This document shows, in pieces, positions 12,472 to 35,809 of a stretch of DNA of 35,809 nt (its first letter is position 1; each line of letters starts with the position of its first letter). Source of the DNA: Limisphaerales bacterium. GTDB lineage: Bacteria; Verrucomicrobiota; Verrucomicrobiia; Limisphaerales; SXTU01. The stretch is taken from the NCBI GenBank assembly GCA_009773355.1, contig WRPG01000055.1, forward strand, positions 1 to 35,809. The letters are read 5' to 3'. The notes under the pieces were generated by a model. The model saw only the letters and a list, made by a program, of their open reading frames with translations. It was not told the origin of the DNA and did not search any database. A program made the translations under genes and the position numbers.

Positions 12472-15400
12472 TCATGCCGCCGGAGCCTCCGCTGGTGCCG
12501 CTCCGTTCGCCTCGTCCTCGCGGCGGTGCGCGAGGAGATACGCGGCGGGGACGATGAAGATGGTCTGCACCAGCGAACACGTCAGCCCGCCGATGATGGC
12601 CAGCGCGAGCGGCGCGTAGGCTTCGCTGCCGGTGCCGAACTTGGCGGCCATCGGGAGCAGGCCCATGAGCGTGGCGAGCGACGTGATGACCACGGGACGC
12701 AGGCGCACGCGGCAGGCCAGCACGAGCGCCTCGCGCACGGGCATCCGGTCCTCCCGCAGCCGACGAACGAACTCAACAATGAGGATGCTGTTCGCCACCA
12801 CGATGCCCACCACCATCACCACGCCCATCAGCGACATGATGTTCAGCGTCGTGCCCGTGGCGGCGAGCAGCACGAGCACGCCGGACAACGCCGACGGCAC
12901 GGCCAGCAGGATGATGAGCGGGTCGAGGAACGACTGGAACTGCGCGACCAGAATCAAATACACCAGCACCACCGCCAGAATCAGCCCGAGGCCGAAGCTT
13001 TTGAACGACGAGTTCATCCCATGCACCATGCCGCGCAACGTCACCGTCAGGCCGGCGGGAATCTCCGTCTCCGCGAGGATGCGGTTCACATCCTTGACTA
13101 CCGCGCCGAGGTCCTCGCCGGCGGGCGCGACATAGACATTGATGACGCGGCGGAGCTGGTAGTGGTCCACCTCGGTCGGCGCGTAGGCGTTGTGGAACTC
13201 GCTCATCGCATCCAACCGCGCGGTGCGCAGCCCCTTCGGCGAGCGCATGGGGATGGACTGCAAGTCCGCCATGTTTTTCACGTAGCCCTCCTGGTATTGC
13301 ACGGTGAGCAGGTAGTCGTTGCCGTTGCGCGGGTCCACGAAGTAGCTCGGGGCAATCATCGCGCCCGAGGTCAGCGCGGTGATGACATTTTGCACGACCT
13401 CCTTGGAGGTCAGCCCCAGCTCGGCGGCGCGCGCGCGGATGACTTCGAGCTTGAGTGCTGGGTGATCAATGTCCTGCGGCACCAGCACGTCGCTCACGCC
13501 CTGGAGGGCGCGGACCTTGCGGGCGATTTCCAGCGCGGTGAGGTGCGCGATTTCGAGGTTCGAGCCGCTGATCTGGATGTCAATCGGCGCGGGCAGGCCG
13601 AGGTTCAACACGGCGTCCACGAGGCCGCCGGATTGCAGATACACGCTCAATTGCGGCAGCTCCTGCGTGATGCGGCGGCGCACGCGGTCCATGTAGGCGT
13701 AGCTGCCGGTCTTGTGCCCCTCGTTCAAGCTGACTTGGACGGAGGCGGTGTGGTGGCCGGAGTTGCTCGTATAGATGGAGCTGAAGCCCGGCTGCACGCC
13801 GATGTTCGACACGATGACGCCGAGATCCTCTTTCGCAACTTCCTGCCGGATGATGTCCTCGACCTGCGCAATGAGCTTTTCGGTGATTTCCACGCGCGTG
13901 CCGGTCGGGGATTTCACGTTGATGAGGAACTGGCTCGGGTCCGTGCGCGGGAAGTAGGACACGCCGACCATCGGGTAAATCGCCAGGCTCGCGGCGAACA
14001 GCAGCAGGCTTGCGAGGACGGTCGTGCGCGGCAGCCGGAGCGCGACGTTGAGCAGGCGCTCGTAGGCGTTGAGCAGGCCGGTGAAGCCGCGCTTGAAGTT
14101 GTCGTTGAAGCGCTGGCCCCAATTGCGCGAGGCGAGCGCGGCATCGCGGATGGCCGGGCGTTTGAGCATCTTCGCGCAGAAGAGCGGCACGACCGTGAGC
14201 GCGACGACGTAGGAGGCGAAGAGCGAGAAGACCACCGCCAGCGCCAGCGCGGTGAACAGGAACTGGCTCACGCCGTAGAGGAAGATGACCGGGAAGAACA
14301 CCACGGCGGTCGCCAGCGACGACGCGAGCACCGGCATGGCGACCTGCTCGCCGCCCTTTTCGGCGGCGGCTTCGGGCGACTCGCCGAGTTCCAGCAGCCG
14401 GAAGATGTTCTCGATGACGACGACGGAGTTGTTGATGAGGCGCGAGAAGGCCAGCGCGAAGCCGCCGAGGACCATCGAGTTCACCGAGTTGTCGCCCAGG
14501 CTGAGCGCGAGGAAGGCGGCGAGGACGGAGATGGGAATCGAGAGGAAGACCGCGAGGGTGCCGCGCACGCTGCCGAAGAACATGAGAATCATCAGGCCGG
14601 TCAGCAGCAGGCCGATGACGCCGATGAGCGTGAGGTTCTTGATGGCGCTCTTCACGAAGAGCGACTGGTCGAAGACGACCTTGCTGACGAGCTGCTGCGG
14701 CACGTCGAGCAGCTTGCCGACGGCGTCCTTCACGCCGTTGACGACCGCGATGGTGCTGCCGCCCTGCTTGAGCACGGGCAGATACACGGAGCGCTGGCCG
14801 TCCACGCGCACGATGTTGTTCTGGATTTGCGACGCGTCCTTCGCCTCGCCCACGTCGGCGACGAGCACGGAGGACTTGCCGACGGTCTTGAGCGGGAGGC
14901 GGCTTACGTCGGCCACGTCGCGGAGCTGGCTGTTCGCGTAGATGTTGTAGTTCAGCGGGCCGATGCGCACGTCGCCGGCGGGAAGAATGAGGTTCGAGTC
15001 GTTCACCGCGCGCACCACATCCATGACCGAGAGCTGGTGCGACTCCAGCTTCAGCGGGTCCACATAGACCATGATCTGCCGGTAGCGCCCGCCGAAGGGC
15101 TGCGGGACGGAGGCGCCGGGGACATTGGCGACCTGGTTGCGCACGGCGTATTGGCCGGTGTCGCGCAGTTCGGTCTCCGTGAGGCCCTCGCCCTTGAGGG
15201 TGATGAGGCAGACCGGGAGGCTGGAGGCGTCGAACTTGAGCACGACCGGCGGCAGCGTGCCGGGCGGAAGCCGGCGGAGGTTTGCGGTGGCGAGGTTTGC
15301 GATGGTGCTGACGGCAGTGTCGGGATTCGTGCCCGGCTGGAAGTAAATCTTGATGAGGCTCACGCCCGGCAAGGAGCGCGACTCGATGTGGTCAATGCCC

Positions 15401-15618
15401 GACGCCAGCGTGAAGAAGCGCTCGAAGCGGCCCGTGATGGAGTTCTCAATCTGCTCCGGCGGCATCCCGGAATAGAACGTGGCGACGACCACGACCGGGA
15501 TGCGGATGGCGGGGAACAAGTCCACCGGCAGGCGCAGCAGACTCGTCACGCCCACCACGCACACGATGAGGCTGACGACGATGGTCAGGTAGGGAAACCG
15601 CAGGGCGAAGCGCGTCAT
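12472..15618 (-). CDS. RND efflux permease (AcrB/HAE1 superfamily), first of a tandem pair, proton-relay acids absent
   Basis: A 1048-residue RND permease collinear with and very similar to the one at 9078-12206. Its start ATG overlaps the RraA-like stop as ATGA, implying translational coupling. The expected layout is visible: first membrane segment, porter loop beginning PEQIENSITGRFERFFTLAS, membrane block, second porter loop and terminal membrane block. In the fourth membrane segment both positions that are Asp in AcrB are Asn (Asn396-Asn397 in AFSRLINNSVVVIEN), and in the tenth VVANSILIVEF lacks the relay Lys. It may therefore be energised differently, or act with its paralogue in a hetero-oligomer, as MdtB and MdtC do (inference). 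Confidence 0.93.
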   Translation of the reverse strand: MTRFALRFPYLTIVVSLIVCVVGVTSLLRLPVDLFPAIRIPVVVVATFYSGMPPEQIENSITGRFERFFTLASGIDHIESRSLPGVSLIKIYFQPGTNPDTAVSTIANLATANLRRLPPGTLPPVVLKFDASSLPVCLITLKGEGLTETELRDTGQYAVRNQVANVPGASVPQPFGGRYRQIMVYVDPLKLESHQLSVMDVVRAVNDSNLILPAGDVRIGPLNYNIYANSQLRDVADVSRLPLKTVGKSSVLVADVGEAKDASQIQNNIVRVDGQRSVYLPVLKQGGSTIAVVNGVKDAVGKLLDVPQQLVSKVVFDQSLFVKSAIKNLTLIGVIGLLLTGLMILMFFGSVRGTLAVFLSIPISVLAAFLALSLGDNSVNSMVLGGFALAFSRLINNSVVVIENIFRLLELGESPEAAAEKGGEQVAMPVLASSLATAVVFFPVIFLYGVSQFLFTALALAVVFSLFASYVVALTVVPLFCAKMLKRPAIRDAALASRNWGQRFNDNFKRGFTGLLNAYERLLNVALRLPRTTVLASLLLFAASLAIYPMVGVSYFPRTDPSQFLINVKSPTGTRVEITEKLIAQVEDIIRQEVAKEDLGVIVSNIGVQPGFSSIYTSNSGHHTASVQVSLNEGHKTGSYAYMDRVRRRITQELPQLSVYLQSGGLVDAVLNLGLPAPIDIQISGSNLEIAHLTALEIARKVRALQGVSDVLVPQDIDHPALKLEVIRARAAELGLTSKEVVQNVITALTSGAMIAPSYFVDPRNGNDYLLTVQYQEGYVKNMADLQSIPMRSPKGLRTARLDAMSEFHNAYAPTEVDHYQLRRVINVYVAPAGEDLGAVVKDVNRILAETEIPAGLTVTLRGMVHGMNSSFKSFGLGLILAVVLVYLILVAQFQSFLDPLIILLAVPSALSGVLVLLAATGTTLNIMSLMGVVMVVGIVVANSILIVEFVRRLREDRMPVREALVLACRVRLRPVVITSLATLMGLLPMAAKFGTGSEAYAPLALAIIGGLTCSLVQTIFIVPAAYLLAHRREDEANGAAPAEAPAA

Positions 15619-16316
15619 GGCTCGTGGAAGACTCCTTTCACGGCATCACGCAGCTTCTCGACGGTGAACTCCTTGGAACGGCAAAATTCAATCACCTTCC
15701 GCTCGCGTGCGAGCAGGCGCTCGGCGGCGGCGGGGATTTCGGCGGCGATTTGCGCGGGCACGGAGAGCACCCCGTGCTGGTCCGCGTGGAGCAGGTCGCC
15801 GGGACTCACCTTCAACCCGCCGACCTCGACCGGCTTACCGAAGTCCACGATGTGAACGTAGGCGTGCGAAACCGCGACGCTGCCGGCAAAGAGCCGGAAG
15901 CCCGCCGCCTCGATGCCCGGCAGGTCATGCACCGAGCCATTCGTCATCGCGCCGATGCAGCCGAGCGCCTGAAGCACGCGCGCGTGAACCTCGCCGATGA
16001 ACGAGCCAAAGCCAGGCCGCTCGCTCACGTCCTGAATCACGACCACGCGCGGCGCGGGCACGGCGAGCAGCTTGTTCCACCAGTCCGTGCGCTCGATGGC
16101 AACGTGCCCCTCGACGGGCGGCCCGGCGTAACGGATGCGCACGGTCGCCGCGTAACCGACCAGCGGCGGCATCTTCGGAAAGATGCAGCGCACCGACGAA
16201 TCGGCGAAGCCCACGTCGCGCAGGCGGATGTTGAAGGTCTCGATGGCGTTGGCCACCGTGCAGGTGTCGAGCCGGCGGAGGGCGTCGAGCTGGGCGGGCG
16301 AAAGCGTGTTGCTCAT
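15615..16316 (-). CDS. RraA-like / HMG-aldolase-fold protein inside the efflux operon
   Basis: A 233-residue member of the RraA / 4-hydroxy-4-methyl-2-oxoglutarate aldolase family. The fold is recognisable from the N-terminal LDTCTVANAIETFN, the GE at 108-109, the NGSVHDLPGIEAAGF segment (126-140) and PGDLLHADQHGVLSVP (172-187). Aldolases of this family use an Arg-Asp pair near the metal site; here it is His130-Asp131, so aldolase activity is uncertain. RraA of E. coli instead binds and inhibits RNase E. The gene is translationally coupled on both sides (ATGA overlaps at 16313-16316 and 15615-15618), so it is an integral operon member and not a chance neighbour. Its job in an efflux operon is unknown. 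Confidence 0.85.
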   Translation of the reverse strand: MSNTLSPAQLDALRRLDTCTVANAIETFNIRLRDVGFADSSVRCIFPKMPPLVGYAATVRIRYAGPPVEGHVAIERTDWWNKLLAVPAPRVVVIQDVSERPGFGSFIGEVHARVLQALGCIGAMTNGSVHDLPGIEAAGFRLFAGSVAVSHAYVHIVDFGKPVEVGGLKVSPGDLLHADQHGVLSVPAQIAAEIPAAAERLLARERKVIEFCRSKEFTVEKLRDAVKGVFHEP

Positions 16317-17641
16317 GGTGCCTCCTCCAGCTTCACCAGCTTCGGCTCGACCTTCTGGCCGGGCTTCACCTGGCTGCGGCTGCCGACCAGCACGGAGTCG
16401 CCTTCCGCGAGGCCGGCGAGCACCTCGGCCTTGTCCGGCGCTTCGAGACCGAGCTTCACTTCGCGTTCTTCCAGCGTGTTGTCCGACTTGATGAGGAAGA
16501 CTGTGACCTTCTTGCCCCGCGCCAACGCGGTGAGCGGCACGGCCAGCACGCCCGTTTTGCGGTCGAGCTTCATCGCCACCGCCGCATACATGCCGGGATA
16601 GAGCGAGCCGTCCGCGTTCACCACGTCCACCTGCGTTTCCATCGTGCGCGTGTTGGCCTCCACCTCGCGCGTGATGCGGGCGACCTTGCCGGGAAACGTC
16701 TTGGTCAAGCTGGCAACGCGCACCTCGACCTCGTCGCCGGCCTTCACCTTCGCGACGAAGGACGAGGACACGGGGAACACCAGCCGCAGCTTGTCCTGAT
16801 GCACCAGCCGCACCAGCGGCACCGCCGGTGCGCTCGGGGAAAGCCCGCCGCGCACCATGTCTCCGGCGTCGGCGTAACGCTTGGAGATGACGCCATCGAA
16901 CGGCGCGACAATCTTGGTGAACACCGCCTTAGCCTGAAGCTTGTGCAATTCGGCCTCAGCGACGTTGACTTGCTCCTTCACCGAGCCAATCGCCGCCCGC
17001 GCAGATGACGCGGCAGCACGGCTGCCGCTGTGCGCGGCTTGGGCGGCGGCAACCTGCGCGTCCGCCGTGCGCTCCTTCGCCTGCGCGGTGTCAATGTCCT
17101 GCTGTGACACAAGGCCGGGCTGTTCCTTCGCCACGCTCGCGATGCGACCGAACGTCAGCTTCACCTCGGCGTGGGTGGCTTGCGCGCGTTTGATTTCGGC
17201 CTCGGCGCGGCGGATGTCCTCGTCAGCACGCAGCGCGTCCTCCTGCGCCTTGACCACGTCCTGCTGCGCGCGCTTCACGGTGGCACTGGCACGTTCGAGG
17301 TCCTCCTTCAACTCCGGCACCTCGATGCTGGCGAGGAGCTGACCGGCCTTCACGCGATCGCCCACGTCCACGTTCATCGTCTGCACGAAGCCGGCGACCT
17401 TCGCGTGGAGGTCAATGTCCTGGAAAGGCCGGAACTCCGCGTCGAAGACGACTTCGCGGGCAATGTCCGCGCGCGTGACCTTCGCCACGGCGACCGGCGC
17501 GGGAGCGGCGGCGCTGCCCTTTGACGTTTCGCTGCCGACGGGTTTCTTGCAAGCAGTGCCGGCGGCGCCCAGCACGAGGGCAGCGGCCAGACCAAGCAAG
17601 GCTGTTCGGAATTCCAAGAATGTTGATGGTCTATCCTGCAT
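16313..17641 (-). CDS. RND membrane-fusion (periplasmic adaptor) lipoprotein
   Basis: A 442-residue HlyD/AcrA-type adaptor linking the RND permease to the TolC-like channel. The ATG at 17641 is preferred to one at 17662 because AAGGA lies 9 nt before it; both overlap the kinase gene. A hydrophobic N-terminus (TALLGLAAALVLGAAGTAC) ends at Cys31 with a weak lipobox, so it is probably a lipoprotein. Next come a barrel-sandwich lipoyl half (FVQTMNVDVGDRVKAGQLLA), a long Ala/Glu/Lys-rich alpha-hairpin (about 105-225), the second lipoyl half (KIVAPFDGVISKRYADAGDMV), a beta-barrel, and a C-terminal membrane-proximal domain (VPLTALARGKKVTVFLI). The stop overlaps the RraA-like start by 4 bp. Confidence 0.92.
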   Translation of the reverse strand: MQDRPSTFLEFRTALLGLAAALVLGAAGTACKKPVGSETSKGSAAAPAPVAVAKVTRADIAREVVFDAEFRPFQDIDLHAKVAGFVQTMNVDVGDRVKAGQLLASIEVPELKEDLERASATVKRAQQDVVKAQEDALRADEDIRRAEAEIKRAQATHAEVKLTFGRIASVAKEQPGLVSQQDIDTAQAKERTADAQVAAAQAAHSGSRAAASSARAAIGSVKEQVNVAEAELHKLQAKAVFTKIVAPFDGVISKRYADAGDMVRGGLSPSAPAVPLVRLVHQDKLRLVFPVSSSFVAKVKAGDEVEVRVASLTKTFPGKVARITREVEANTRTMETQVDVVNADGSLYPGMYAAVAMKLDRKTGVLAVPLTALARGKKVTVFLIKSDNTLEEREVKLGLEAPDKAEVLAGLAEGDSVLVGSRSQVKPGQKVEPKLVKLEEAP

Positions 17642-19076
17642 TGTGTGTGTCCTTCGTTTCATCCGAGTTCTCCGCGAGCGGGAGCAGCACGCGGAACCGC
17701 GCGCCGCGTCCTTCCTCGCTTGCCACTTCCACCTGCCCGCCGTGCGCGGTGCAAATCGCCTTCACGATGGACAGGCCGATGCCCGCACCGCCCAGCTCGC
17801 GCGAGCGGGCCTTGTCCACGCGGAAAAAGCGCTCGAAGACGTGCGGCAGCGCGCCCGCCGGAATGCCCATGCCCGTGTCCGTGACTTCCAGCACGGCCTT
17901 GCCGATATTCGGCGCGGCGACGACGGAGAGCGTGACGGAGCCGCCGGGGGGCGTGTATTTGACCGCGTTGTCGAGGAGGTTCACGACCACCTGCTTGAGC
18001 CGGGCGCGGTCGCCCTCGACGCTCACGGCGCGGGGCGCGAGGCAGTTGAGCGACACCTGCTTGTCCTCGGCGAGCAGGCTCATCTGCTCGGCGGTGGTGG
18101 CGGCGAGCTGGCCCAGGTCGAAGGGCACCGACTCGGCCTGTGCCTCGCCCGCGTCGAGCCGCGACAATGCGAAGAGGTTCTCCACGATCTTGGCGAGCCG
18201 CTCCACTTCTTCGAGCACGCTGCCGATGCGGTCCTGCAACTCGGGCGCGCCGTCGGTCTGTTGCAGCATCGTCTCCAGCTCGCCGCGCAGGATGGTCAGC
18301 GGCGTGCGCAGCTCGTGCGAGGCGTCGGCCATGAAGCGGCGGTTGTGGCTAAGTGCCTCGTCCAGCCGGGCAATCATCTGGTTGAGCGCGGTGGACAGCC
18401 GCTCCAACTCGTCGCCCGTGCGCGGCACGGGCAGGCGCTCGCCGAGGTTGTGCGAGGAAATCTGCTCGGTCCCGTGGATGATTTTTCGCACCGGCTCCAG
18501 CGCGCGCCGGGCGAGGAACCAGCCGCCGCCCGCCGCCACGGCCAGCAGGAAGGGGAACGCCAGCGCAAACGTCACCAGCCACTCGCGCAGCACCGTCTCC
18601 ACCGGCCCGAGCGACGCGCCCACTTCCACGCGAAACGTCCCGGCCGCCGTCGGCACGGGGCCGGTGACAATGAGCAAACTTTCGCTCTCCGGCGGCGACT
18701 CCACGCGCGCGTAGGCCCGCGCCACCGTCGTTGCGGCGGGCGGCACCTTGGTCGGATCGAAGCTCAAGTCCGCCGGCACGCCGCAGACGTAGAGCACGCT
18801 GCCATCTGGGCGGGTCACGCGGATGAAGCGGCTGTTCAATTCCGGCGCGTAGCTCTCGCGGATTTCCTGGATGACGTGCGCCTCGCCGAGCTGCGCGACG
18901 CGCGCCACGAGCGTCTCGGCGATGACCCCCGCGCGTTTGGACTGCGTCTCGCGGAGGTTCTTCTCCAGATGATGCTTCATGCCTAAATACATGAAGCCGC
19001 CCAGCAGCAGGAAGACGACGGCGATGACGCCCGCATACCAGGCCGTGAGCTGGAAACCGATGGAACGCGGGTTCAT
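17631..19076 (-). CDS. Membrane sensor histidine kinase of the efflux operon
   Basis: A 481-residue kinase of the QseC/CusS type. Order: first membrane helix (about 10-32), periplasmic sensor domain (about 33-165), second membrane helix (166-188), HAMP (188-240), HisKA with the phosphorylated His254 in FMADASHELRTPLTILR, and HATPase with N-box NLLDNAVKYTPPG, DTGMGIP and GGAGIGLSIVKAICTAHGG. It would phosphorylate the response regulator whose stop codon overlaps its start (ATGA, 19073-19076) and so control the efflux genes downstream. CusS-like kinases often sense metals, but I see no His- or Met-rich metal cluster in the sensor domain, so the stimulus is open. Confidence 0.93.
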   Translation of the reverse strand: MNPRSIGFQLTAWYAGVIAVVFLLLGGFMYLGMKHHLEKNLRETQSKRAGVIAETLVARVAQLGEAHVIQEIRESYAPELNSRFIRVTRPDGSVLYVCGVPADLSFDPTKVPPAATTVARAYARVESPPESESLLIVTGPVPTAAGTFRVEVGASLGPVETVLREWLVTFALAFPFLLAVAAGGGWFLARRALEPVRKIIHGTEQISSHNLGERLPVPRTGDELERLSTALNQMIARLDEALSHNRRFMADASHELRTPLTILRGELETMLQQTDGAPELQDRIGSVLEEVERLAKIVENLFALSRLDAGEAQAESVPFDLGQLAATTAEQMSLLAEDKQVSLNCLAPRAVSVEGDRARLKQVVVNLLDNAVKYTPPGGSVTLSVVAAPNIGKAVLEVTDTGMGIPAGALPHVFERFFRVDKARSRELGGAGIGLSIVKAICTAHGGQVEVASEEGRGARFRVLLPLAENSDETKDTHNAG

Positions 19077-19753
19077 CCGGGCGTGTCCTCGCTTAGGCTG
19101 TAGCCCACGCCGCGCACGGTGCGGATGAGCTTGGTGGGAAAGGGATCGTCCACCTTCGCGCGCAGATGGCGGACATACACGTCCACGATGTTCGTCAGCC
19201 CCTCGAAGCTCTCGTCCCAGACGTGCTCGATGATCATGGTGCGGGACAAGACTCGACCCGAATGCGCCATGAAGTATTCGAGCAGGGCGTATTCCTTGCC
19301 GGTGAGTTCCAAGCGCGTCCCGCCGCGCCGCACCTGCTGGGTGAGCCGGTCCAGCTCAAGGTCCGCCACGCGCAACGTGCTGCTACGCGCCACCGGCCCG
19401 CGCCGCAGGAGCGCCTTCACTCGCACCGCCAGTTCCGCGAAGGCAAACGGCTTGGTCAGGTAATCATCCGCGCCCGCCTCGAAGTTCTCGACCTTCGCAG
19501 CGGTGTCGTCCTTCGCGGTCAGAATGAGCACCGGCACATCCGGCGTCTGGCGGCGGATGCGCTTGAGCACCTCGGTCCCGCTCATCACCGGCAGCATGAG
19601 GTCGAGGATGATGGCGTCGTATTGGAAGCTGGCGGCAAACTCGCACGCGCTCTGCCCGTCGAAGGCGAGGTCCACGGCGAAGCGCTCGGCGCGCAGGCCG
19701 CGCGCCACAAAGTCCGAAACCTTCCGATCATCCTCAGCCAGGAGCAATCGCAT
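19073..19753 (-). CDS. OmpR/PhoB-family response regulator of the efflux operon
   Basis: A 226-residue regulator with a full receiver (acidic cluster E7-D8-D9 in LLLAEDDRKV, phosphoacceptor Asp51 in ILDLMLP, Thr79, Lys101 in YLTKPFAF) and an OmpR-type winged-helix domain (ELTGKEYALLEYFMAHSGRV, IVDVYVRHLRAKVD, and VRGVGYSL). I take the ATG at 19753 because MRLLLAEDD is the family's usual start. An in-frame ATG at 19789 would add 12 residues. As first gene of the operon it probably autoregulates; an inverted repeat at 19796-19828 is a candidate operator. The nearest characterised families are CusR/CopR. Confidence 0.93.
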   Translation of the reverse strand: MRLLLAEDDRKVSDFVARGLRAERFAVDLAFDGQSACEFAASFQYDAIILDLMLPVMSGTEVLKRIRRQTPDVPVLILTAKDDTAAKVENFEAGADDYLTKPFAFAELAVRVKALLRRGPVARSSTLRVADLELDRLTQQVRRGGTRLELTGKEYALLEYFMAHSGRVLSRTMIIEHVWDESFEGLTNIVDVYVRHLRAKVDDPFPTKLIRTVRGVGYSLSEDTPG

Positions 19754-19795
19754 GTCGTGTTGTTCGACCGCAGAGTCGGCCGGGGACATTAAAGA

Positions 19796-19828
19796 ATTCC
19801 GAACGAAACATTAAAAGCCGTTCAGAAT
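19796..19828 (-). promoter_or_regulatory. Candidate operator/promoter for the efflux operon
   Basis: ATTCCGAACG (19796-19805) and CGTTCAGAAT (19819-19828) are reverse complements at 9 of 10 positions, with a 13-bp AT-rich spacer that contains TTTTAATG on the minus strand. The dyad lies 43-75 bp upstream of the preferred start of the response regulator, where an autoregulatory site would be expected. OmpR-family regulators more often bind direct repeats, so this is tentative. Confidence 0.4.
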
Positions 19829-19996
19829 CGCGGCGGGCACCGAAGTTCGCCTTCCGAGTGGGCGCAATCACTCCAGTAAGAAGCCACCAGTCGAAGGTCA
19901 CCCCGACCGGGGTTGCTTTCCCGCACTTGGGCTGCTCTCGACCGTGGCTCTGGCTTTTTCCTCGTCAACCGGGAGCCAGCCAGCGACGCCCCGCCC
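19829..19996. other. Gap between the hybrid kinase and the efflux operon promoter
   Basis: These 168 bp contain only a short GC hairpin (ACCCC-GACC-GGGGT, 19900-19913) downstream of the hybrid kinase stop, a weak terminator candidate without a T-tract. I see no ORF or repeat family here. Confidence 0.35.
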
Positions 19997-22060
19997 TCAG
20001 CTTTGGAGCAGCAACTGGCACTGGGTGAGGAAGACCTCCATGGGGAAGGGTTTGCGCAGCACCGGGACGCCGAGGGTGTCCAACTCCTCGTTCAAACTGG
20101 TGCTGCCGGCGTCGCCGGTGATGAAGATGAAGCGGCGGGCCAGTTCCGGCCGGGACTCGCGCACCCAGCGGAACAGGTCAAGGCCGCTGATGTGGGGCAT
20201 TCGCACGTCGGAGATGATCAGGTCGAAGTGCTCGGCCTTGAGGCGCGTGATGGCTGTCTGGCCATCGGCGACCCACTCGGCTTGCGAACCCATGTTGCGC
20301 TGGACGATGGAGCGCAGGATGACGGCGATGGCGTCCTCGTCATCCACGATGAGAATGCGGCGCGCCCCGGTGACGCTGGCGGCGAACCGCTCGGGGACCG
20401 GGCTGGCGGCGGTGGGATTGCCCCCGCGTTCCGACGACTGGGCTATCGCGGCGGCGGCGGCGGGAAGTTTGACACGCGCCTGCGTGCCCTCGCCGGGCAC
20501 GCTCTGGAGGGTCAGTTCGCCCCCGTGCTGCTTGATGATGGTGTAGCAAACACTCAAGCCCAGACCGGTGCCGCGATCCGGGGCCTTGGTGGTGAAAAAA
20601 GGGTCAAAGACGCGGTTGAGGTGCTGTGGGGCGATGCCGCAGCCGGTGTCCGCGAGGGTCAAGAGCCAGCAACCGTTGTCCCGCGTGACCTCGAAGCGCA
20701 GGGCGCGGCGGGGGCTGCCCTCCATGGCGTCGAGGCTGTTGATCAGGAGGTTCACCAAGACCTGCTTGATCTGCTGGGCATCGGCCATCACGCAGACCGT
20801 GGCGCCCGGGAGAAGCACCTCATGCTGCACGTCGGCCTGCCGCAGGCGGTGGGTGAGGATGGTCAGCGTGTCCTCGATGATCTCGCGCAGGTCGCACTGG
20901 ACCAGCTCCATCTTGACCGGCTTGGAGAGCTGCAGGAGCTGGCGGATGATGCGGGCGGCCTCGGTGGCGCTGTTGCGCATGGCGGTGCAGTGCCCCAGGA
21001 TGACGGCGGGGTCGGCCTTGAGCCGGAGGTCCTCGGTGACCATGTCGGCGAACATGAGGATGGGGGTGAGCTTGTTGTTCAGCTCGTGGGCGATGCCGCC
21101 GACGAGCGACTCCAGCAGGTTGGCCTTCTCCTTCTGGGCCAGTTTGCGCTCCAGCACGCGTTGCTCGCTCACGTCCTCGAGAAGCACGCTGAACTGGCCG
21201 GTTTCGCCGACCCAGTTGACGACGATCTTGAACTGCCGGATGCCCAGGCGCGGAAGCTGGAGGCGGAAATCACCGCTGTGCGCAATGGGGGAACGAGGCT
21301 CATCCTCCGCATCGCTCTCCTGCCGGCGCACGAGCAGGAAGAAGGCCTGCCGGTCAGCCGGCACGATGAGGTCGCTCAGGTTCAGGGCCTTGGCCGAGTC
21401 TTTGGTTGAGTCCAGGCCAAGCAGGACTTCGAACCGGCGGTTGTGCGACTCGACCTGGCAGAGCCGGTTCAGGAGGGCGACGCCCAGCACATTGTTCTGG
21501 AAGAGGATGTCATAACGGCCCTGCGAGCGGCGCAGCTCGTCGAGGCTCTCGTTAAGCGCCCGGTTGCGCTCGGCCAGCGTTTTGCGCTGGGCCTCGATCT
21601 GGCTGGTGGATTCCGCGATCAGCCGGGTCTGCAGCCGCACGAGCGTTTGCACCTGAATGATGCCCCGGAACATGCCCTGCTCATCAGTGAGCGCCACGTC
21701 GTCGTAAAACTCCTCGCCCTCGCGGGACAACGCCTGGTCCAGCAGTTCCAGCAACGGCATCTGATCCGGCACGGCCAGATGCCTGGCCATCAGGTGCTGG
21801 CCCACCGGCTGACGCCCGTAAACGGCGAAACCAAAGCGCGCGCCCAACAGGAAACCCACATGGCCACGGGACACCATGCCCACCACCCGCCCGTGCCGGG
21901 TCACCCCCACGTATTCGGGCTCGTGGCTCTGGAAGTAACCATAGACGGCTTCGAGCGTGGTGTCCGCCTCCACGGCCTCACGGTGGCCGATGAGCGAATC
22001 CAAGGTCTGGAGTTGCTGCTTCACCGCCAGCCCACCGGGATACTCGGATAAAAGATTCAT
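19997..22060 (-). CDS. Soluble hybrid histidine kinase: CBS-like pair, PAS, kinase, receiver
   Basis: A 687-residue kinase with no membrane helix, so its signal is cytoplasmic. Order: CBS-like region (about 25-145, with EYVGVTRHGRVVGMVSR and FRGIIQVQTLV, each the end of a CBS motif), a coiled coil (about 148-180), a PAS-like domain (about 181-298, opening YDILFQNNVLGV), HisKA with His325 in SLVGGIAHELNNKLTPIL, HATPase (N-box NLLINSLDAM, DTGCGI, GTGLGLSVCYTIIKQHGG), a Pro/Ala linker, and a C-terminal receiver (D573-D574, phosphoacceptor Asp618, Lys670 in LRKPFP). CBS pairs often bind adenine nucleotides. Two PHO-box-like heptads lie just upstream. It is the best candidate in the window to feed the receiver at 22807-23199, though this is inference. 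Confidence 0.9.
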   Translation of the reverse strand: MNLLSEYPGGLAVKQQLQTLDSLIGHREAVEADTTLEAVYGYFQSHEPEYVGVTRHGRVVGMVSRGHVGFLLGARFGFAVYGRQPVGQHLMARHLAVPDQMPLLELLDQALSREGEEFYDDVALTDEQGMFRGIIQVQTLVRLQTRLIAESTSQIEAQRKTLAERNRALNESLDELRRSQGRYDILFQNNVLGVALLNRLCQVESHNRRFEVLLGLDSTKDSAKALNLSDLIVPADRQAFFLLVRRQESDAEDEPRSPIAHSGDFRLQLPRLGIRQFKIVVNWVGETGQFSVLLEDVSEQRVLERKLAQKEKANLLESLVGGIAHELNNKLTPILMFADMVTEDLRLKADPAVILGHCTAMRNSATEAARIIRQLLQLSKPVKMELVQCDLREIIEDTLTILTHRLRQADVQHEVLLPGATVCVMADAQQIKQVLVNLLINSLDAMEGSPRRALRFEVTRDNGCWLLTLADTGCGIAPQHLNRVFDPFFTTKAPDRGTGLGLSVCYTIIKQHGGELTLQSVPGEGTQARVKLPAAAAAIAQSSERGGNPTAASPVPERFAASVTGARRILIVDDEDAIAVILRSIVQRNMGSQAEWVADGQTAITRLKAEHFDLIISDVRMPHISGLDLFRWVRESRPELARRFIFITGDAGSTSLNEELDTLGVPVLRKPFPMEVFLTQCQLLLQS

Positions 22061-28213: not shown

Positions 28214-31200
28214 TTACGGCGTGGGCACCGCGCGGAAGAAGCGGCGGGCGCGACCGTCCGAGGTCGTGTCAATGTAGAACTGCCGGCCGCCCTGATGAAC
28301 GACGTTCGTCAGGGTGGTCCAGGAGTTCGTGTTGGTGATGTCGGCGAGGAACTCGAGGCGATACTTCGCGTTGGCCGGGCCATCAATGGTGACGCCGCCG
28401 AAGAACGCGATGTCCGCCGTGCTGACGGGCACCGGGACGCTGGTGGTCACGCCCGCGCCGTTGCTGATTTGCACCGAGTAGTTGCCCCCGTTGGCCGGGA
28501 GGAACCCGTTGACCGTGAGCGTGCTGCTGGTCGCCGTGGGGATGAGCACGCCGTTGAGGAACCACTGGTAGGTGAACGGCCCCGTGCCGGCGACGGCGTT
28601 GGTCGGGACGCTCAAGACGAGCGTGCCGCCGCTGCTGACGGTCGCGCCGGGCAGGCCGTTGCGGAACAGCGTGTCGCCGATGATCGGCGGCGCGGTGATG
28701 GCGACGTTGGCAACTGCGCTGGTGACGGAGCCGTTGCCGTTGGCGGCCACCAGCGAGTAAGCGCCGTTGGCGACCTCGACCATGAGCTGCAACTGGCCGT
28801 TCTCGCGCAGCTCGGTGGTGTTCAGCCCCGCCGGGATGCCGGCGGTGGTGTGAAACTGGTCGGCGATGAGGTAGGCGCGGTGGCCCAGGATGCCGCTGAC
28901 ATCAATGATGCCGGAGGCCTCCTCGTCCTGCGTGAGGAAGCCGGGCTGGCCGGTGGTCACGAGGTTCGGGCGGTGCTGGGAGACGAGCACGAGCGAGTCC
29001 GTGGCGACGACATACTTCCACGTCTTGCCGTTGTGCGCCTGGTTGCCCACGTCTTCCTGGATGAGGAGGTTGCCATCGGGGTCAATGCCGATGTTGTCCA
29101 TCATCTTGATGCCCTCGGTGCCGTCGAGCAGCATGTCAATCACGCCGCCGGACTCCGGGTTGGCGATGTCTGTGAAGCGCAGACGCCACAGGCGGCTGGT
29201 GCCGGTGAAGCTCGCGGTGGTGACGAAGTAGAAGTCCCGCGGGTTGGCCGGGTCCCACACGCCGTCCTCGACGCGCTGGAAGGCGGTCACGGCGTTCGTG
29301 TTGCCGAAGTCCTCGAGGTTCTGCTCCGACAGCGCGGTGGCGTTGCCGAAGTTGAACAGCGTGAAGTTCCGCTGGACCGCCGTGGTGCCGGCGACTTCCT
29401 GCGCCAGGCCCGTGACCTGCACGCCGTAGAGGCTGCCGTTCTGGAGGCCGGCCTTCTCGATGTCGAGGCCGCCAGCCTGCTTGTTGCCGATATAGACATA
29501 CACCTGCGAGTCCGTGGTGCCGTCGTCGTCCATGCCCATCACGATGGTCTTGGCCTGCGCGAACGGGCTGGCGAGCGAGTTTTCCCAGGCGAATTTGCCC
29601 AGGTAGGGGAGCTGCCAGGCCTTGCCGGCGTCCGGTCCCGTGGCGACGAACGCGAAGGCGCGGCCGTCGGTGTTCTCCTCGCCGTTCATGAAGATGCGGT
29701 TCGGGGTGCCGACGCCGCCGCCCGGGAAGTTGAAGGCGGAGACGGCAGGCAGGTCGGCGGAGCAAAGGCGGGCAATTGCCGCGTTGCTCTGCACGAAGCC
29801 GCTGCCGTTCCAGATCTGGATGTTCGTCGCGAGGTCGCTCACGTTGAGCACCGCGAGGTTGCTCTTGGCGATGACCAGCTTGCTGACGAACGCGCCAATC
29901 GCGCCGTGCGCGCGGACGATGCCGTCCGTGTTGCGGATCTCATGGTTCACCAGCACGGTGAACGTGCCGTCGCCGTTGTCGAACGCGCCAAGGCCGTCCA
30001 TCAGGCCCGCAAGCCGGTGCGGCGAGCCGTCACCCTTGTTGTTGACCGTGTCGCCCACGGACATCAGCGAGATGAGCGCGTGGCCGGAATCCACCGCCTC
30101 CTGGAAGGGCGGGCGGCTGCTGCTGGGGCCGGTGTGGTCGAGGCCGGCGGCTCCGCGCACGTTGTTGAGCGTGAGCGTGGCGCCGTTCGCGCCGGCGATG
30201 GCGACGCCGTTCTTGAACCACTGGAACGAGGTCGCGCCAGTGACGTTCGGGGCGAGTGTCACGGTGCCGCCGGCGTTGGCGAGCGTGTTGGCCGGCGGCT
30301 GGGTGTTGACGGTCGGCGGCGTGGCCGGGAGCGGCGCGGTCTGCGGGAGCCGCGCCCCGTTGCCGGACATTACGCCGTAGGCGCCGAGCGTGGTCCAGTC
30401 TGCGGCCCAGTTGTGGTCGCCAAATGCGCCAACGTAGGGGGCGTTGACGTAGAAGCCGTTCGCCACGGTGGGCTTGATGTTGGCCGGGTTGAGCGCCGGG
30501 CTGCCGATGGCCGGACGCGGGTCGAGCCCGAAGCCCGTCACGCGGCTGATGCCGGTGAGCTGCGGGCTGACGATGAGGTTGGTCTTGGCCGGGTCCGTGA
30601 GGAACGGCTGGAAGTTCGCCGTGATGGCGATGTTCGTCACCGTGTCGCTGGTGCCGATGCCGAAGAAGATGTTGTTCTGGAAGTCCAGCTTGCCGCTGGC
30701 GATGTGCGTGCCGGCGTTGGCGTCAATGCTCACGCCCCGGCGCGCGAAGTCGCCGAAGATGCCGTTGAAGAAGCTCGGCGCGGCGAACTCGCGGATGGTC
30801 ATGCCGTTGCCGCTGCCCTGGCCGTTGACCGCTCCGGAGCCGAGCACGGTGAAGTTCCAGACCTTCCACTCCGAGGTCGGCAGGACGCCGGTGTTGGGCG
30901 CGTCGCCGTCAATCTCGAAGCCGCTGTCCTTGAGGCCGTGCTCCTGGATGCCGAACCAGAACTGGTTCTGGCCGCGATAGCCCTGGTCGGCGTCGAAGGC
31001 GTCGTCGTCGTTGAACGCGGAGACGAGCCACTTGGTGCTGACCGTGCCGCCGAAGAACTCAAAGCCGTCGTCCGCGATGGCGTAGGCCTCGACGAATTCA
31101 ATCGTTGTTCCCCGGCCCACACCGCAGAGGGAGAGGCCGTTGATTTCCTTGTTGGACTCGAGCTTCTTGCCGCCGTGCCGGATGGACACGTAGCGCATCA

Positions 31201-33079
31201 CGCCGGAGGAGTCGTCGTCGTTGCTGCCGCCGAAGCGGTGGACGTTCTGGCTGTTGATGACGGTGTCGGGCAGGCCCTCGTAGATGTCATACTTGGGCGT
31301 CGCGCCGTTGCCGGTGGCGTCGGTGGCGCTGTTGATGCCGGCGTTGCCCAGCAGGACTATGCCGCCCCAGAGGCCGCGGTCGTAGAGGCCGAGGTTGGGC
31401 CAGGCGTTCGTGGTGCCGAGCGTATCCGCCGTCGAGGTGAAGACGATGGGGTTCTGCGCGGTGCCGTTGGCGAAGAGCTTGCCGCCGCGGGTGACGAAGA
31501 GGGAGCCGAAGCCGTTGGTGTTGGCGAGGTCGTTGGTGCCCTTGACGATGGTGCCGGCCTCGATGTTGAGCACAGCGCTGGACTCGACATACACCTTGCC
31601 GACGAGGTGGTAGATGTTGGTGCGGGTCCAGTTGTTCGTGCCGGTCAGCGAGCCGCTGATGGTGACGACGTTCTGGCCGTAGTTGCCGTTCGGGCGGATG
31701 ACGCCGTATTGGGAGAGCGTGGTCCACTTGGCAATCCACAGGTTGTCCGGGCTGAACGCGCCAAGGTGGCTGGTCGGGACGATGAAGCCGCCGGGGGCCG
31801 CCACCTTCACGTTGGCCTGATTGAGGGCGGGGCTGCCGGCGGTCGGGCGCGGGTCGAGGCCGCCGTCGTTGATGCGGCTGATGCCGGCGAGCTGCGGATT
31901 GACGATGAGGTTGGTCTTGCTCGCGTCGCTCAAAAGCGCCTGCGCGTTGGCGGTGATGCCGATGTTCGTCACCGTGTCGCTCGTGCCGAAGCCGAAGAAG
32001 ATGTTGTTGGCGATGTCGAGCTTGCCGCTGGCGATGTGCGTGCCGGCGTTGGCGTCAATGCTGATGCCCCGGCGCGCGAAGTCGCCGAAGATGCCGTTGA
32101 AGATGCCCGGCGCGGCAAACTCGCGGATGGTGAAGGCGTTGCCGCTGCCCTGGCCGTTGACCGACCCGGAGCCGAGGATGGTCGCGTTCCACACCTTCCA
32201 CTCGGAGGTCGGCAGCACGCCGCTGTTGGGCGCGTCGCCGTCCAGCTCGAAGCCGCTGTCCTTGAGGCCGTTTTCCTGGATGCCGAACCAGAACTGGTTG
32301 AAGCCGCGATAGCCCTGGTCCGTGTCGAACGCGTCGTCGTCGTTGAAGGCCGAGACGAGATAGCGGGTGTTGACCGTGCCGCCGAAGAACTCGAAGCCGT
32401 CATCGGCGATGGCGTAGGCCTCGACGAACTCGATGACCGAGCCGCGCCCGACGCCGCAAAGCGACAGGCCGTTGATTTCCTTGTTGGACTCCAGCTTCTT
32501 GCCGCCGTGCCGGATGGAGACGTAGCGCATCACGCCGGAGGAATCGTCGTCATTGTTGCCGCCAAAGCGGTGGACGTTCTGGCCGTTGACGAGCGCGTCG
32601 GGCAGGCCCTCGTAGATGTCATACTTGGGCGTCGCACCGTTGCCGGTGGCGTCGGTGGCGCTGTTGATGCCGGCGTTGCCCAGCAGGACGATGCCGCCCC
32701 AGAGGCCGCGGTCGTAGAGGCCGAGGTTGGGCCAGGCGTTGGTCGTGCCGAGATTGTCCGCCGTGGAGGTGAAGATGATGGGCCGGTCCGGCGTGCCTTG
32801 GGCGAAAAGCTTGCCGCCCTGGCAGATGAAGAGGGAACCGAAGCCGTTGGTGTTGGCGAGGTCGTTGGTGCCCTTGATGATGGTGCCTGGCTCGATGGTC
32901 AGGTTGGCCCCGGTCTGGACATAGACCTTGCCGACGAGATGGTAGGTGTTGGTTGCGAACCATGTCGTGCTGCTCGTGAGGGAACCGGAGACGGTCACCA
33001 CGTCAGCACCCGCCTGCGAGGCCGCCAGCATGAATGCGAGGCCCAGCGCTTTGCCGAGTGTTTGGAGGGATTTCTTCAT
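28214..33079 (-). CDS. Secreted 1621-residue protein: two tandem repeats, Ig-like domain split by a PhoX-like (DUF839) phosphatase domain
   Basis: It starts with a signal peptide (MKKSLQTLGKALGLAFMLAA, cleavage near SQAGA). Residues 26-470 and 471-907 are tandem copies of a probable beta-solenoid module (ANLTIEPGTIIKG, GGKLFAQGTPDRPIIFTS, FEFFGGTVNTRYLVSAFNDD). An Ig-like half follows (922-977, TSFQWFKNGVAIAGANGATL, ending LTLNNVRGAAG). Then comes a DUF839/PhoX-like domain (about 980-1435) with LVNHE (1043-1047), VRAHGAIGAFVSK, Cys1106 and MNGEEN (1131-1136), which resemble metal-ligand segments of PhoX. GAYSLVAANGNGSVTSAVAN (1439-1458) then supplies the missing end of the Ig domain. A second Ig-like domain (about 1468-1552) and a verrucomicrobial-type C-terminal module (1560-1621) complete it. 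Likely a calcium/iron-dependent phosphatase. Enzymatic activity is inferred. Confidence 0.82.
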   Translation of the reverse strand: MKKSLQTLGKALGLAFMLAASQAGADVVTVSGSLTSSTTWFATNTYHLVGKVYVQTGANLTIEPGTIIKGTNDLANTNGFGSLFICQGGKLFAQGTPDRPIIFTSTADNLGTTNAWPNLGLYDRGLWGGIVLLGNAGINSATDATGNGATPKYDIYEGLPDALVNGQNVHRFGGNNDDDSSGVMRYVSIRHGGKKLESNKEINGLSLCGVGRGSVIEFVEAYAIADDGFEFFGGTVNTRYLVSAFNDDDAFDTDQGYRGFNQFWFGIQENGLKDSGFELDGDAPNSGVLPTSEWKVWNATILGSGSVNGQGSGNAFTIREFAAPGIFNGIFGDFARRGISIDANAGTHIASGKLDIANNIFFGFGTSDTVTNIGITANAQALLSDASKTNLIVNPQLAGISRINDGGLDPRPTAGSPALNQANVKVAAPGGFIVPTSHLGAFSPDNLWIAKWTTLSQYGVIRPNGNYGQNVVTISGSLTGTNNWTRTNIYHLVGKVYVESSAVLNIEAGTIVKGTNDLANTNGFGSLFVTRGGKLFANGTAQNPIVFTSTADTLGTTNAWPNLGLYDRGLWGGIVLLGNAGINSATDATGNGATPKYDIYEGLPDTVINSQNVHRFGGSNDDDSSGVMRYVSIRHGGKKLESNKEINGLSLCGVGRGTTIEFVEAYAIADDGFEFFGGTVSTKWLVSAFNDDDAFDADQGYRGQNQFWFGIQEHGLKDSGFEIDGDAPNTGVLPTSEWKVWNFTVLGSGAVNGQGSGNGMTIREFAAPSFFNGIFGDFARRGVSIDANAGTHIASGKLDFQNNIFFGIGTSDTVTNIAITANFQPFLTDPAKTNLIVSPQLTGISRVTGFGLDPRPAIGSPALNPANIKPTVANGFYVNAPYVGAFGDHNWAADWTTLGAYGVMSGNGARLPQTAPLPATPPTVNTQPPANTLANAGGTVTLAPNVTGATSFQWFKNGVAIAGANGATLTLNNVRGAAGLDHTGPSSSRPPFQEAVDSGHALISLMSVGDTVNNKGDGSPHRLAGLMDGLGAFDNGDGTFTVLVNHEIRNTDGIVRAHGAIGAFVSKLVIAKSNLAVLNVSDLATNIQIWNGSGFVQSNAAIARLCSADLPAVSAFNFPGGGVGTPNRIFMNGEENTDGRAFAFVATGPDAGKAWQLPYLGKFAWENSLASPFAQAKTIVMGMDDDGTTDSQVYVYIGNKQAGGLDIEKAGLQNGSLYGVQVTGLAQEVAGTTAVQRNFTLFNFGNATALSEQNLEDFGNTNAVTAFQRVEDGVWDPANPRDFYFVTTASFTGTSRLWRLRFTDIANPESGGVIDMLLDGTEGIKMMDNIGIDPDGNLLIQEDVGNQAHNGKTWKYVVATDSLVLVSQHRPNLVTTGQPGFLTQDEEASGIIDVSGILGHRAYLIADQFHTTAGIPAGLNTTELRENGQLQLMVEVANGAYSLVAANGNGSVTSAVANVAITAPPIIGDTLFRNGLPGATVSSGGTLVLSVPTNAVAGTGPFTYQWFLNGVLIPTATSSTLTVNGFLPANGGNYSVQISNGAGVTTSVPVPVSTADIAFFGGVTIDGPANAKYRLEFLADITNTNSWTTLTNVVHQGGRQFYIDTTSDGRARRFFRAVPTP
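30359..33004 (-). repeat. Tandem duplication of about 1.33 kb inside the PhoX-like gene
   Basis: Codons 26-470 (33004-31670) and 471-907 (31669-30359) encode collinear copies with long identical protein stretches, such as LYDRGLWGGIVLLGNAGINS and RYVSIRHGGKKLESNKEING. DNA similarity is also high: the stretches at 31305-31400 and 32635-32730 are almost the same. The duplication looks fairly recent or kept alike by gene conversion. Confidence 0.85.
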
Positions 33080-33313: not shown

Positions 33314-35809
33314 TCAATACTCGTAGGACAGCGAGATGCCGAACGTCATCCCCTTCGTGTAGGCCGAGTAGCTGTTCTGGGACAGATCCTTGTCGCCGTA
33401 GGTGCGGCGATAGACCGGGTCGAGCAGGTTCTTGGCGGTGAACTTCAGCGCCATGCCGGGGCGCAGCTTCTGGCTCCACACGAAGTCAAGCTGCGGCGCG
33501 GGCTGCTCATACACGTCATTGATGAGCGCGGAGGCGATGGTCAGACGCGGGCCGACGACGCTGTAGCCCAGGGTCATCGAGGTGCCGGTGCGCTTGTTGT
33601 CGTAGTTCAGGTCCGTGCTGAAGATGTAGGGCGACTGGTCGTAGAGCGGCCGCGTGGCCTTGGCATCGGGCACGCCGAGCTGCTTGGTCGCCAGCTCGCC
33701 GGGCGTGAGCTTCACCTCGGATTTCAGCATCGAGTAGCTGAAGCCCCAACTGAAGTTGTCCAGGAGCGGGCTGAGGACATCGAGCTTCTTGCGCGCCTCC
33801 AGCTCGAGGCCATAGATCGAAGCCTGGTCCCGGTTCTCGTAAATCAGGATGTCGCCCTGCAAGTCCACGAACTTGCGCTCGATTGGGTTGGCAATCTTCT
33901 TGTAAAAGCCGCTGACGGAGAACACCTCGCCGGGGCGCGGAAACCACTCCCAGCGCACGTCGTAGTTGTCCACCGTGCTGATTTGCAGCGCGGGATTGCC
34001 GCGCACCAGCGTGTCAATCGAGGGGTCATACGCCTGGTAGTTCGCGATCTCCCGGTAGCTGGGCCGCGCGATGGTCTGCGCCCAGGCGACGCGCAGGTTC
34101 ATGTCCGTGGCGAGGTTGAAGACCAGGTTCAGCGACGGCAGCCAGTGCGCCGCCTGCAAGGAGCTGTTTGCCCCGCCCAGGTTGCTGCCGCCGGTGCCCG
34201 CGATGCTCAGGTCCGTCATCTCCAGCCGCGCGCCGCCGATGAGCCGCAGCCGCTCCGTGGCCGCGAGGTCCGACATCATGTAGGCCGCCGTGATGTCCTG
34301 CTGCCCCTCATAGCGGCTGTTGCCGATTTCGTTGACGAGATAGCGCTCAATCCGCCCGCTGGCGAACTGCAGCGCTGCGTCGTCGAGAAACGTGTTGGGC
34401 GTGCCGGTGAACTCGCCCACGTCACCCAGCGCGCTGGCCATCTTGTATTGGAACGTCCGCTCGGTGAACTCGCGCTTCGACGCGCTGAAGTAGCCGCCCG
34501 CCTTGAACTCGCTGTCCAGTCCGGCCCATTGCAGGAACGGCCAGGTGAAGTCGCTTTTCAGGTTGAAGTTCTCGTCCAGCAGGTCGCGGAAGTAGCGCGT
34601 CGGCAGAAACGGCTGTGGGATTTCCGCGCTGTTGATCTGGTAAATAGTCGTCCCGCCCGGCCCGGGGCGCTTGAAGGCGTTGAAGAACCGCGAGTCCGGC
34701 TCCGCCTGCGTCGTCTCCGAGAGCGTCGCGAGCCACTCGAACTTCGGCGCGTTGTGGCGCGGCAGCTCGTGCGTGCCCTTGAGCTGGAACGTGTGCAGAT
34801 GCCGCTCCACGAAGAGCAGCTCGTTCTGCTCCAGCGCCGTCGGCGTGCCCGCCGTGTCAATGGAGGCGCCGTCCGACGTGCGCGCCGTGTCCTCGGCGAA
34901 CTGGTTGTAGAGGAAGTTGAAGGCGAACTCGTGGCCTTCAACCGGCTTCAGGCCCAGGCTCACCGACGTGACCCACGACGCCTCCATCACGCCGCGCTTG
35001 TCCTTCAGCTCGACGCTCGGCTGGAGCGCGCCGGCGTCGTTGCGGAAGCGGTTCCGCGTGCCGCCCTCGTAGGACGAGAACGAGCGGCTGTAGCTCATGC
35101 CCATGAAGTAGCCCGCCGGCATCCCGAGGAAATAGAACTGGTCGCCGGTCGAGAGCGAAAAGCTGTTGTTCACCGGCGACGAGCCGTTCACCGGACCGAA
35201 CTGCGTCGGGCCAAGCTCGCGCGTCAGCCGCGCCAGCGTTGCGTTGCCCGCCACCGTGGTGCCCACCCGGCCCGGGATGAAGAAGCCATCCGCTGCAAAC
35301 TGCGGCGGCAGCTCGCGCGTGCCGTCATCCAGCGCCGCCCAGTCGAACGCGCCGCCGCTGTAGGTGGGGAACGCGTCGTTCAAGCTCGACTGCGTGTTGT
35401 AGGAGGCCCCCAGCGACATCTTGAAGAAATGCCGCGACGGGATGGACTTGGTGACGATGTTGACCGCGCCGCCCGTGAACGCGCCGGGCAGATCAGGGGT
35501 GAACGTCTTCGCGACGACGATGTTGTCAATGATGGCCGCCGGGAAGAGGTCGAGCTGAACGGACTTGCGATAAGGGTCCGCGCTGGGAATGTCCGCGCCG
35601 TTGAGCGTCGTGCTCGTGTAGCGGTCCGCGAGGCCGCGCACGACGACGAACTTGCCTTCGACAATCGTCGTGCCCGTCACCTTCGAGACGATGTCGCCCG
35701 CGTCCGACGCAGTGCCCTTGGAAATCTGCTCCGAGCCGATGGCGTCGGTCACGGCGGCGGCCTTCTTACGCTCTTCGAGCACCGCCGCGATGGTCGTGGG
35801 CTTCACGAC
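33314..35809 (-). CDS. TonB-dependent outer-membrane receptor, N-terminus beyond the right edge
   Basis: At least 831 residues of an outer-membrane active-transport receptor. The plug domain is visible at once: GSEQISKGTASDAGDIVSKV, VVVRGLADRYTSTTLNGADI, DLFPAAIIDNIVVAKTFTPD and GAFTGGAVNIVTKS. A large beta-barrel follows and ends in GISLSYEY with the expected terminal aromatic residue. The signal peptide, TonB box and any N-terminal carboxypeptidase-like domain lie outside the window; the GTG at 35806 is not the real start. It sits directly upstream of the secreted PhoX-like gene in the same orientation, but each seems to have its own transcription signals. A substrate released by that phosphatase, or the phosphate ester itself, is an attractive but unproven cargo. 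Confidence 0.9.
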   Translation of the reverse strand, partial: VVKPTTIAAVLEERKKAAAVTDAIGSEQISKGTASDAGDIVSKVTGTTIVEGKFVVVRGLADRYTSTTLNGADIPSADPYRKSVQLDLFPAAIIDNIVVAKTFTPDLPGAFTGGAVNIVTKSIPSRHFFKMSLGASYNTQSSLNDAFPTYSGGAFDWAALDDGTRELPPQFAADGFFIPGRVGTTVAGNATLARLTRELGPTQFGPVNGSSPVNNSFSLSTGDQFYFLGMPAGYFMGMSYSRSFSSYEGGTRNRFRNDAGALQPSVELKDKRGVMEASWVTSVSLGLKPVEGHEFAFNFLYNQFAEDTARTSDGASIDTAGTPTALEQNELLFVERHLHTFQLKGTHELPRHNAPKFEWLATLSETTQAEPDSRFFNAFKRPGPGGTTIYQINSAEIPQPFLPTRYFRDLLDENFNLKSDFTWPFLQWAGLDSEFKAGGYFSASKREFTERTFQYKMASALGDVGEFTGTPNTFLDDAALQFASGRIERYLVNEIGNSRYEGQQDITAAYMMSDLAATERLRLIGGARLEMTDLSIAGTGGSNLGGANSSLQAAHWLPSLNLVFNLATDMNLRVAWAQTIARPSYREIANYQAYDPSIDTLVRGNPALQISTVDNYDVRWEWFPRPGEVFSVSGFYKKIANPIERKFVDLQGDILIYENRDQASIYGLELEARKKLDVLSPLLDNFSWGFSYSMLKSEVKLTPGELATKQLGVPDAKATRPLYDQSPYIFSTDLNYDNKRTGTSMTLGYSVVGPRLTIASALINDVYEQPAPQLDFVWSQKLRPGMALKFTAKNLLDPVYRRTYGDKDLSQNSYSAYTKGMTFGISLSYEY

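Follow-up and report, generated by a model that had tools for sequence, protein, structure and literature searches.

A PhoX-like propeller lying between strands E and F of an immunoglobulin-like domain in a predicted secreted protein of Limisphaerales

Gram-positive pilus tip adhesins such as RrgA and GBS104 carry a vWA domain among their Ig-like domains, a surface head on an interrupted Ig-like stalk, and the hybrid domain of the integrin beta subunit is itself an I-set Ig fold. It is into this hybrid domain that the beta-I domain of integrins is inserted (PMC10137042, PMC9805914). Domain insertions have been reported for 20% of multidomain proteins (PMC13114784), with no mention of immunoglobulin or propeller found by word search in the main text of that paper, and a partial literature search gave nothing relevant on a PhoX or catalytic domain inserted in an Ig-like domain. 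Canonical PhoX phosphatases are exported by the Tat pathway (PMC4223295).

The gene described here lies on the minus strand of a 35,809-nucleotide stretch of DNA, the whole of which is referred to below as the window. Its features, in window positions and in the order of the protein, are as follows.

28214..33079, minus strand: whole gene, encoding a 1621 aa secreted multidomain protein (ORF listing and translation)
33005..33079, minus strand: Sec-type signal peptide, about residues 1-25, MKKSLQTLGKALGLAFMLAASQAGA, without twin arginine (read from the sequence)
31685..33001, minus strand: tandem repeat unit 1, about residues 27-465, a beta-solenoid by appearance only
30365..31672, minus strand: tandem repeat unit 2, about residues 470-905, 80% identical to unit 1
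30149..30334, minus strand: N-terminal half of an Ig-like domain, strands A-E, residues 916-977, ending LTLNNVRGA (HMM columns 6-64, 48.0 bits; confident strands in the model)
28772..30136, minus strand: inserted PhoX-like beta-propeller enzyme, residues 982-1436, GPSSS...GQLQLMVE (PF05787, PhoX fold match, ligand motifs)
28676..28771, minus strand: C-terminal half of the Ig-like domain, strands F-G, residues 1437-1468, ANGAYSLVAANGNGSV... (HMM columns 65-95, 21.2 bits)
28412..28666, minus strand: second Ig-like domain, uninterrupted, about residues 1472-1556 (HMM columns 19-91, E 2e-21; Pfam Ig_3)
28217..28411, minus strand: C-terminal tail module, residues 1557-1621, ending RRFFRAVPTP, common to many proteins of the order

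A Pfam scan of the protein gave Ig matches near the C-terminus with a PhoX match inside, and no match in tandem repeat unit 1. The tail module has no Pfam name and is perhaps a sorting tail. Directly upstream of the gene, on the same strand, lies a TonB-dependent receptor (33314-35806), and in genomes G010 (L141) and G046 (L140) receptors 46-48% identical precede the homologue by a few kb. Elsewhere in the window, at 12472-22060 on the minus strand, there are an AcrB-type pump, an HlyD adaptor and two histidine kinases.

Searched with an HMM based on 75 uninterrupted Ig domains from the order, the whole protein was found to match at 30155-30325 over columns 7-64 and again at 28685-28783 over columns 63-95, with 458 residues between the two; a near-complete further Ig follows at 28418-28645 (columns 19-91). 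When joined in silico, the two halves score 24.9 bits against the Pfam I-set profile, for which the cut-off is 23.7, and 69.3 bits on the order's own HMM, the profile spanning strands A-G. The initial annotation had placed the two parts at residues 922-977 and 1439-1458 with about 460 residues between them, numbers that agree with the present borders to within a few residues. The split is confirmed: a complete PhoX-like propeller of about 455 residues separates strand E from strand F of an I-set Ig domain. In 706 ORFs that were scanned, with 252 Ig hits between them, the pattern is restricted to this protein family, and a scan of the window's own whole genome gave one split domain among about 37 Ig domains. 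A suspected second case, G000:C16:68797-68997, turned out, once its sequence was read, to be an unbroken PKD-like domain.

The same arrangement was found in 11 proteins from nine genomes (G000, G003, G004, G005, G009, G010, G046 with three copies, G072 and G308) belonging to three families of one order; these are the window protein and ten from related genomes, whose inserts are about 50-86% identical to that of the window. The N-terminal half ends at HMM column 63-65, or at 69 and 72 in two of the 11, while the C-terminal half starts at column 64-65 in every one, so that no strand is missing or repeated between the complementary halves; joined, the halves score 65-95 bits in the 11 proteins. 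The frame is open throughout, and dN/dS between the window gene and its G003 counterpart is 0.18-0.27, indicating purifying selection in both Ig halves and in the enzyme. No split was seen among 11 non-inserted homologues, which have either no convincing Ig at the enzyme borders or a complete Ig after the enzyme. That the arrangement is an artefact of assembly has practically negligible probability: the carriers are indeed multi-contig drafts, and the G009 protein (L051), a mosaic of two lineages, could also be produced by mis-assembly, but the recurrence of one junction in inserts so diverged, behind upstream domains that differ, is a strong counter-argument, and both the open frame and the purifying selection on the two halves also speak against it.

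The host module also occurs without its enzyme, and the enzyme without its host. A window query from which the enzyme had been removed by script, leaving Ig-Ig-tail, aligned to proteins of the same order at 33-38% identity over 238-256 aa, the junction being bridged with a gap of a single residue; examples of the uninterrupted host are L032, L031, L036, L033 and L041, with L031 and L041 coming from the same genus as the window. A search for relatives with an uninterrupted Ig had been proposed at the outset, and these are its yield. Standalone homologues, from the order and the class, consist of a signal peptide and enzyme, often with a PEP-CTERM element, or of enzyme followed by a complete Ig. 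Their enzyme borders, GPSS...PY and E..GQLxLM, are those of the insert, and they stop at GQLxLM without the C-half segment (ANGAYSLVAANG), which itself aligns to the F-G strands of intact Ig domains in the same tail module. The uninterrupted host and the free insert, each found elsewhere, are what defines a domain insertion. In Bacteroidetes the enzyme is fused to choice_anch_I and 5'-nucleotidase domains. Scans of viral collections yielded no more than a few Ig domains and lipoprotein forms of the enzyme; the standalone lipoprotein-type enzyme is found on IMG/VR contigs (L124, L125, L126). In four proteins (L103, L104, L105 and L107, from G150, G201, G199 and G283) two PhoX-like enzymes stand in tandem in one ORF.

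It might be supposed that the two flanks are independent of each other, the first being a truncated Ig remnant and the second an extra propeller hairpin or a linker to the next Ig. The second flank is short, at about 31 residues, and scores 11-24 bits when taken alone in a whole-protein scan, as such a reading would have it; the complementary HMM columns in all 11 proteins, the ending of standalone enzymes ahead of this segment and its match to the F-G strands of intact Ig domains make the reading very unlikely. Nor was a core complete in one half seen, each half lacking the other's strands in sequence. By far the best explanation, and in our view a highly probable one, is that an Ig-Ig-tail module, common among secreted proteins of the order, has received a whole PhoX-like enzyme between strands E and F of its I-set Ig. 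As judged from sequence comparison, an exact split, a complete enzyme, an enzyme-free host module and conservation of the arrangement across 11 proteins, nine genomes and three families are all in evidence.

A first AlphaFold2 model, from seven sequences, had a pLDDT of 47.9 and was discarded. For the second, the input consisted of enzyme rows plus Ig N-halves and C-halves as separate unpaired rows, because MAFFT had misaligned full Ig rows across the 460-column gap; the half rows included those of other proteins, and only the window protein and L051 span both halves. Giving the halves unpaired is the stricter test. The resulting model has a pLDDT of 76.1 and a pTM of 0.79, with the Ig blocks mostly at 66-90, and its last enzyme strand (515-524, model numbering) is separated by about three residues from Ig strand F (528-535). 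VIA-align matched mainly propellers, and the Ig part was barely covered by the fold search. As for the proposed packing of the two halves as one sandwich, both halves and the enzyme are confidently modeled, and HMM complementarity together with model confidence strongly implies that the halves would fold together around the insert.

The relation of the enzyme to PhoX is distant by sequence. Against PF05787 it scores 35.3 bits (curated cut-off 24), matches to this family being obtained for 26 of 32 family members at E <= 0.01, and hhalign to three clear PhoX proteins gives an E of 6e-9. Querying the PDB by sequence with the profile of the enzyme did not find PhoX, and searching the window's own genome for PF05787, at genome level, gave no hit. 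Starting from the predicted model, the closest PDB fold is Pseudomonas fluorescens PhoX, in entries 4a9v and 3zwu (Foldseek E 7.8e-13), with a VIA-align Z of 25.8 over 394 residues at an rmsd of 3.5. With this fold match, the PF05787 match and the complementary split in all 11 proteins, the proposal of a PhoX-like domain in the Ig E-F loop is upheld. PhoX has E273, E387 and C179, the iron-ligating cysteine, among its Fe/Ca-site residues; residue numbers were read from motifs in the PDB alignment. Two more, R385 and D292, are named in PMC11098088. E273, D292 and E387 have counterparts that are the same in 32/32 relatives, and the counterpart of R385 is kept in 30/32, all of them aligned by hhalign. 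A cysteine at residue 1106 is likewise invariant in 32/32 and comes in the same order as C179, but lies outside the block aligned by hhalign. A Tat signal is usual in characterised PhoX, if not strictly defining; no twin arginine was read in the N-terminus, MKKSLQTLGKALG..., and the enzyme is for this reason named PhoX-like rather than PhoX.

In one G005 protein (L057:2790-6749) about 62 residues of the inserted enzyme, conserved acidic motifs among them, are missing through an in-frame deletion, with both Ig halves kept; to judge by these losses, this copy is probably inactive. Were the split real and the enzyme catalytically inert throughout the family, the propeller would serve in binding or as a structural element. 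The distance from PhoX, the G005 copy with its retained frame and the lack of a Tat signal are in keeping with this, but the metal-ligand positions preserved across the relatives and the fusions to PhoD and phytase-like enzymes weigh the other way, and inertness is judged rather unlikely. On the preferred reading, of an inserted enzyme that is active, the protein would be exported by Sec and the propeller would hydrolyse phosphate monoesters at a PhoX-like iron-calcium site. The first and last strands of a propeller lie side by side in its closing blade; it therefore tolerates insertion, and the enzyme can extend from a loop between two Ig strands. The Ig domain would then hold the enzyme at two points, providing a rigid mounting in place of a single linker.

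What lies upstream of the cassette varies considerably. In the window protein it is the two tandem repeats; in G009, G010 and one G046 copy there are phytase-like domains, in G004, G005 and G308 PhoD phosphatase domains, and in G072, as in another G046 copy, nothing but a short N-terminus. The initial annotation saw the enzyme as displayed on a stalk of beta-solenoid repeats; repeats of that appearance do precede it here, but with upstream parts that vary so much the stalk is one variant and not the principle. The fusions to PhoD and phytase-like domains suggest that the cassette may help to free phosphate from extracellular organic compounds.

In the enzyme tree the inserted state needs two changes; the AU test (p 0.39) does not reject a single origin, nor is one shown. 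In the near relatives G118-G120 the repeats are followed by the enzyme, and the enzyme by a complete Ig. The G009 protein (L051/L064) is a mosaic, with most of its Ig N-half, second Ig and tail resembling G010, and its enzyme and the stretch that follows resembling G000 and G003. An exchange of the enzyme breaking exactly at the loop was considered and dropped, as the breakpoints fall at about 951-978 on the left and 1485-1500 on the right (window-protein residues). Recombination fits this mosaic, and chimerism is possible, the assembly being a draft and the contig 6.5 kb long. One further proposal is that the Ig acts as a mechanical clamp, tension on the chain or binding to the Ig straining the closing blade and so tuning activity, with the E-F loop serving as a port for enzyme exchange. 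The clamp is suggested by the way in which the end strands of the enzyme continue with hardly any linker into Ig strands E and F, and the port by the G000-type enzyme in the G010-type chassis of G009; the proposal as a whole is speculative and its truth doubtful.

The survival, in the same order, of both the host module without its enzyme and the enzyme without its host makes this an unusually clean natural before-and-after set, showing that an inter-strand loop of an Ig can accept a 455-residue propeller and offering a template for two-point enzyme display on Ig scaffolds. It is also a warning for annotation pipelines, as an Ig domain that is split gives poor scores when its halves are read separately, and a pointer to proteins in which several phosphatases are fused (PhoD or phytase-like with PhoX-like) for the scavenging of phosphorus.

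Of the described systems, PhoX of P. fluorescens (3ZWU, 4A9V) is like the enzyme in its fold, in belonging to PF05787 and in several counterparts of the Fe/Ca ligands; it differs in standing alone, in being Tat-exported and in its larger size, the window enzyme being about 455 aa, lying inside an Ig and following a Sec-type signal. RrgA and GBS104 differ from the window protein in that their domain is one of adhesion, their Ig type is CnaB and they are anchored by sortase; there is no homology. Psip1 of picocyanobacteria (PMC11098088), likened here by description only, is a propeller phosphatase with PhoX-like Fe/Ca residues and little sequence similarity, for which no Ig host is reported. In architecture, the closest precedent is the integrin beta-I domain, likewise a large functional domain in an Ig-fold loop and held at two points; it belongs to a eukaryotic adhesion receptor, its insert is of the vWA binding type and not an enzyme, and there is no homology. 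With that precedent, the arrangement described here is a conserved domain insertion of an already known sort, of which the enzyme in the E-F loop of an Ig is a new variant.
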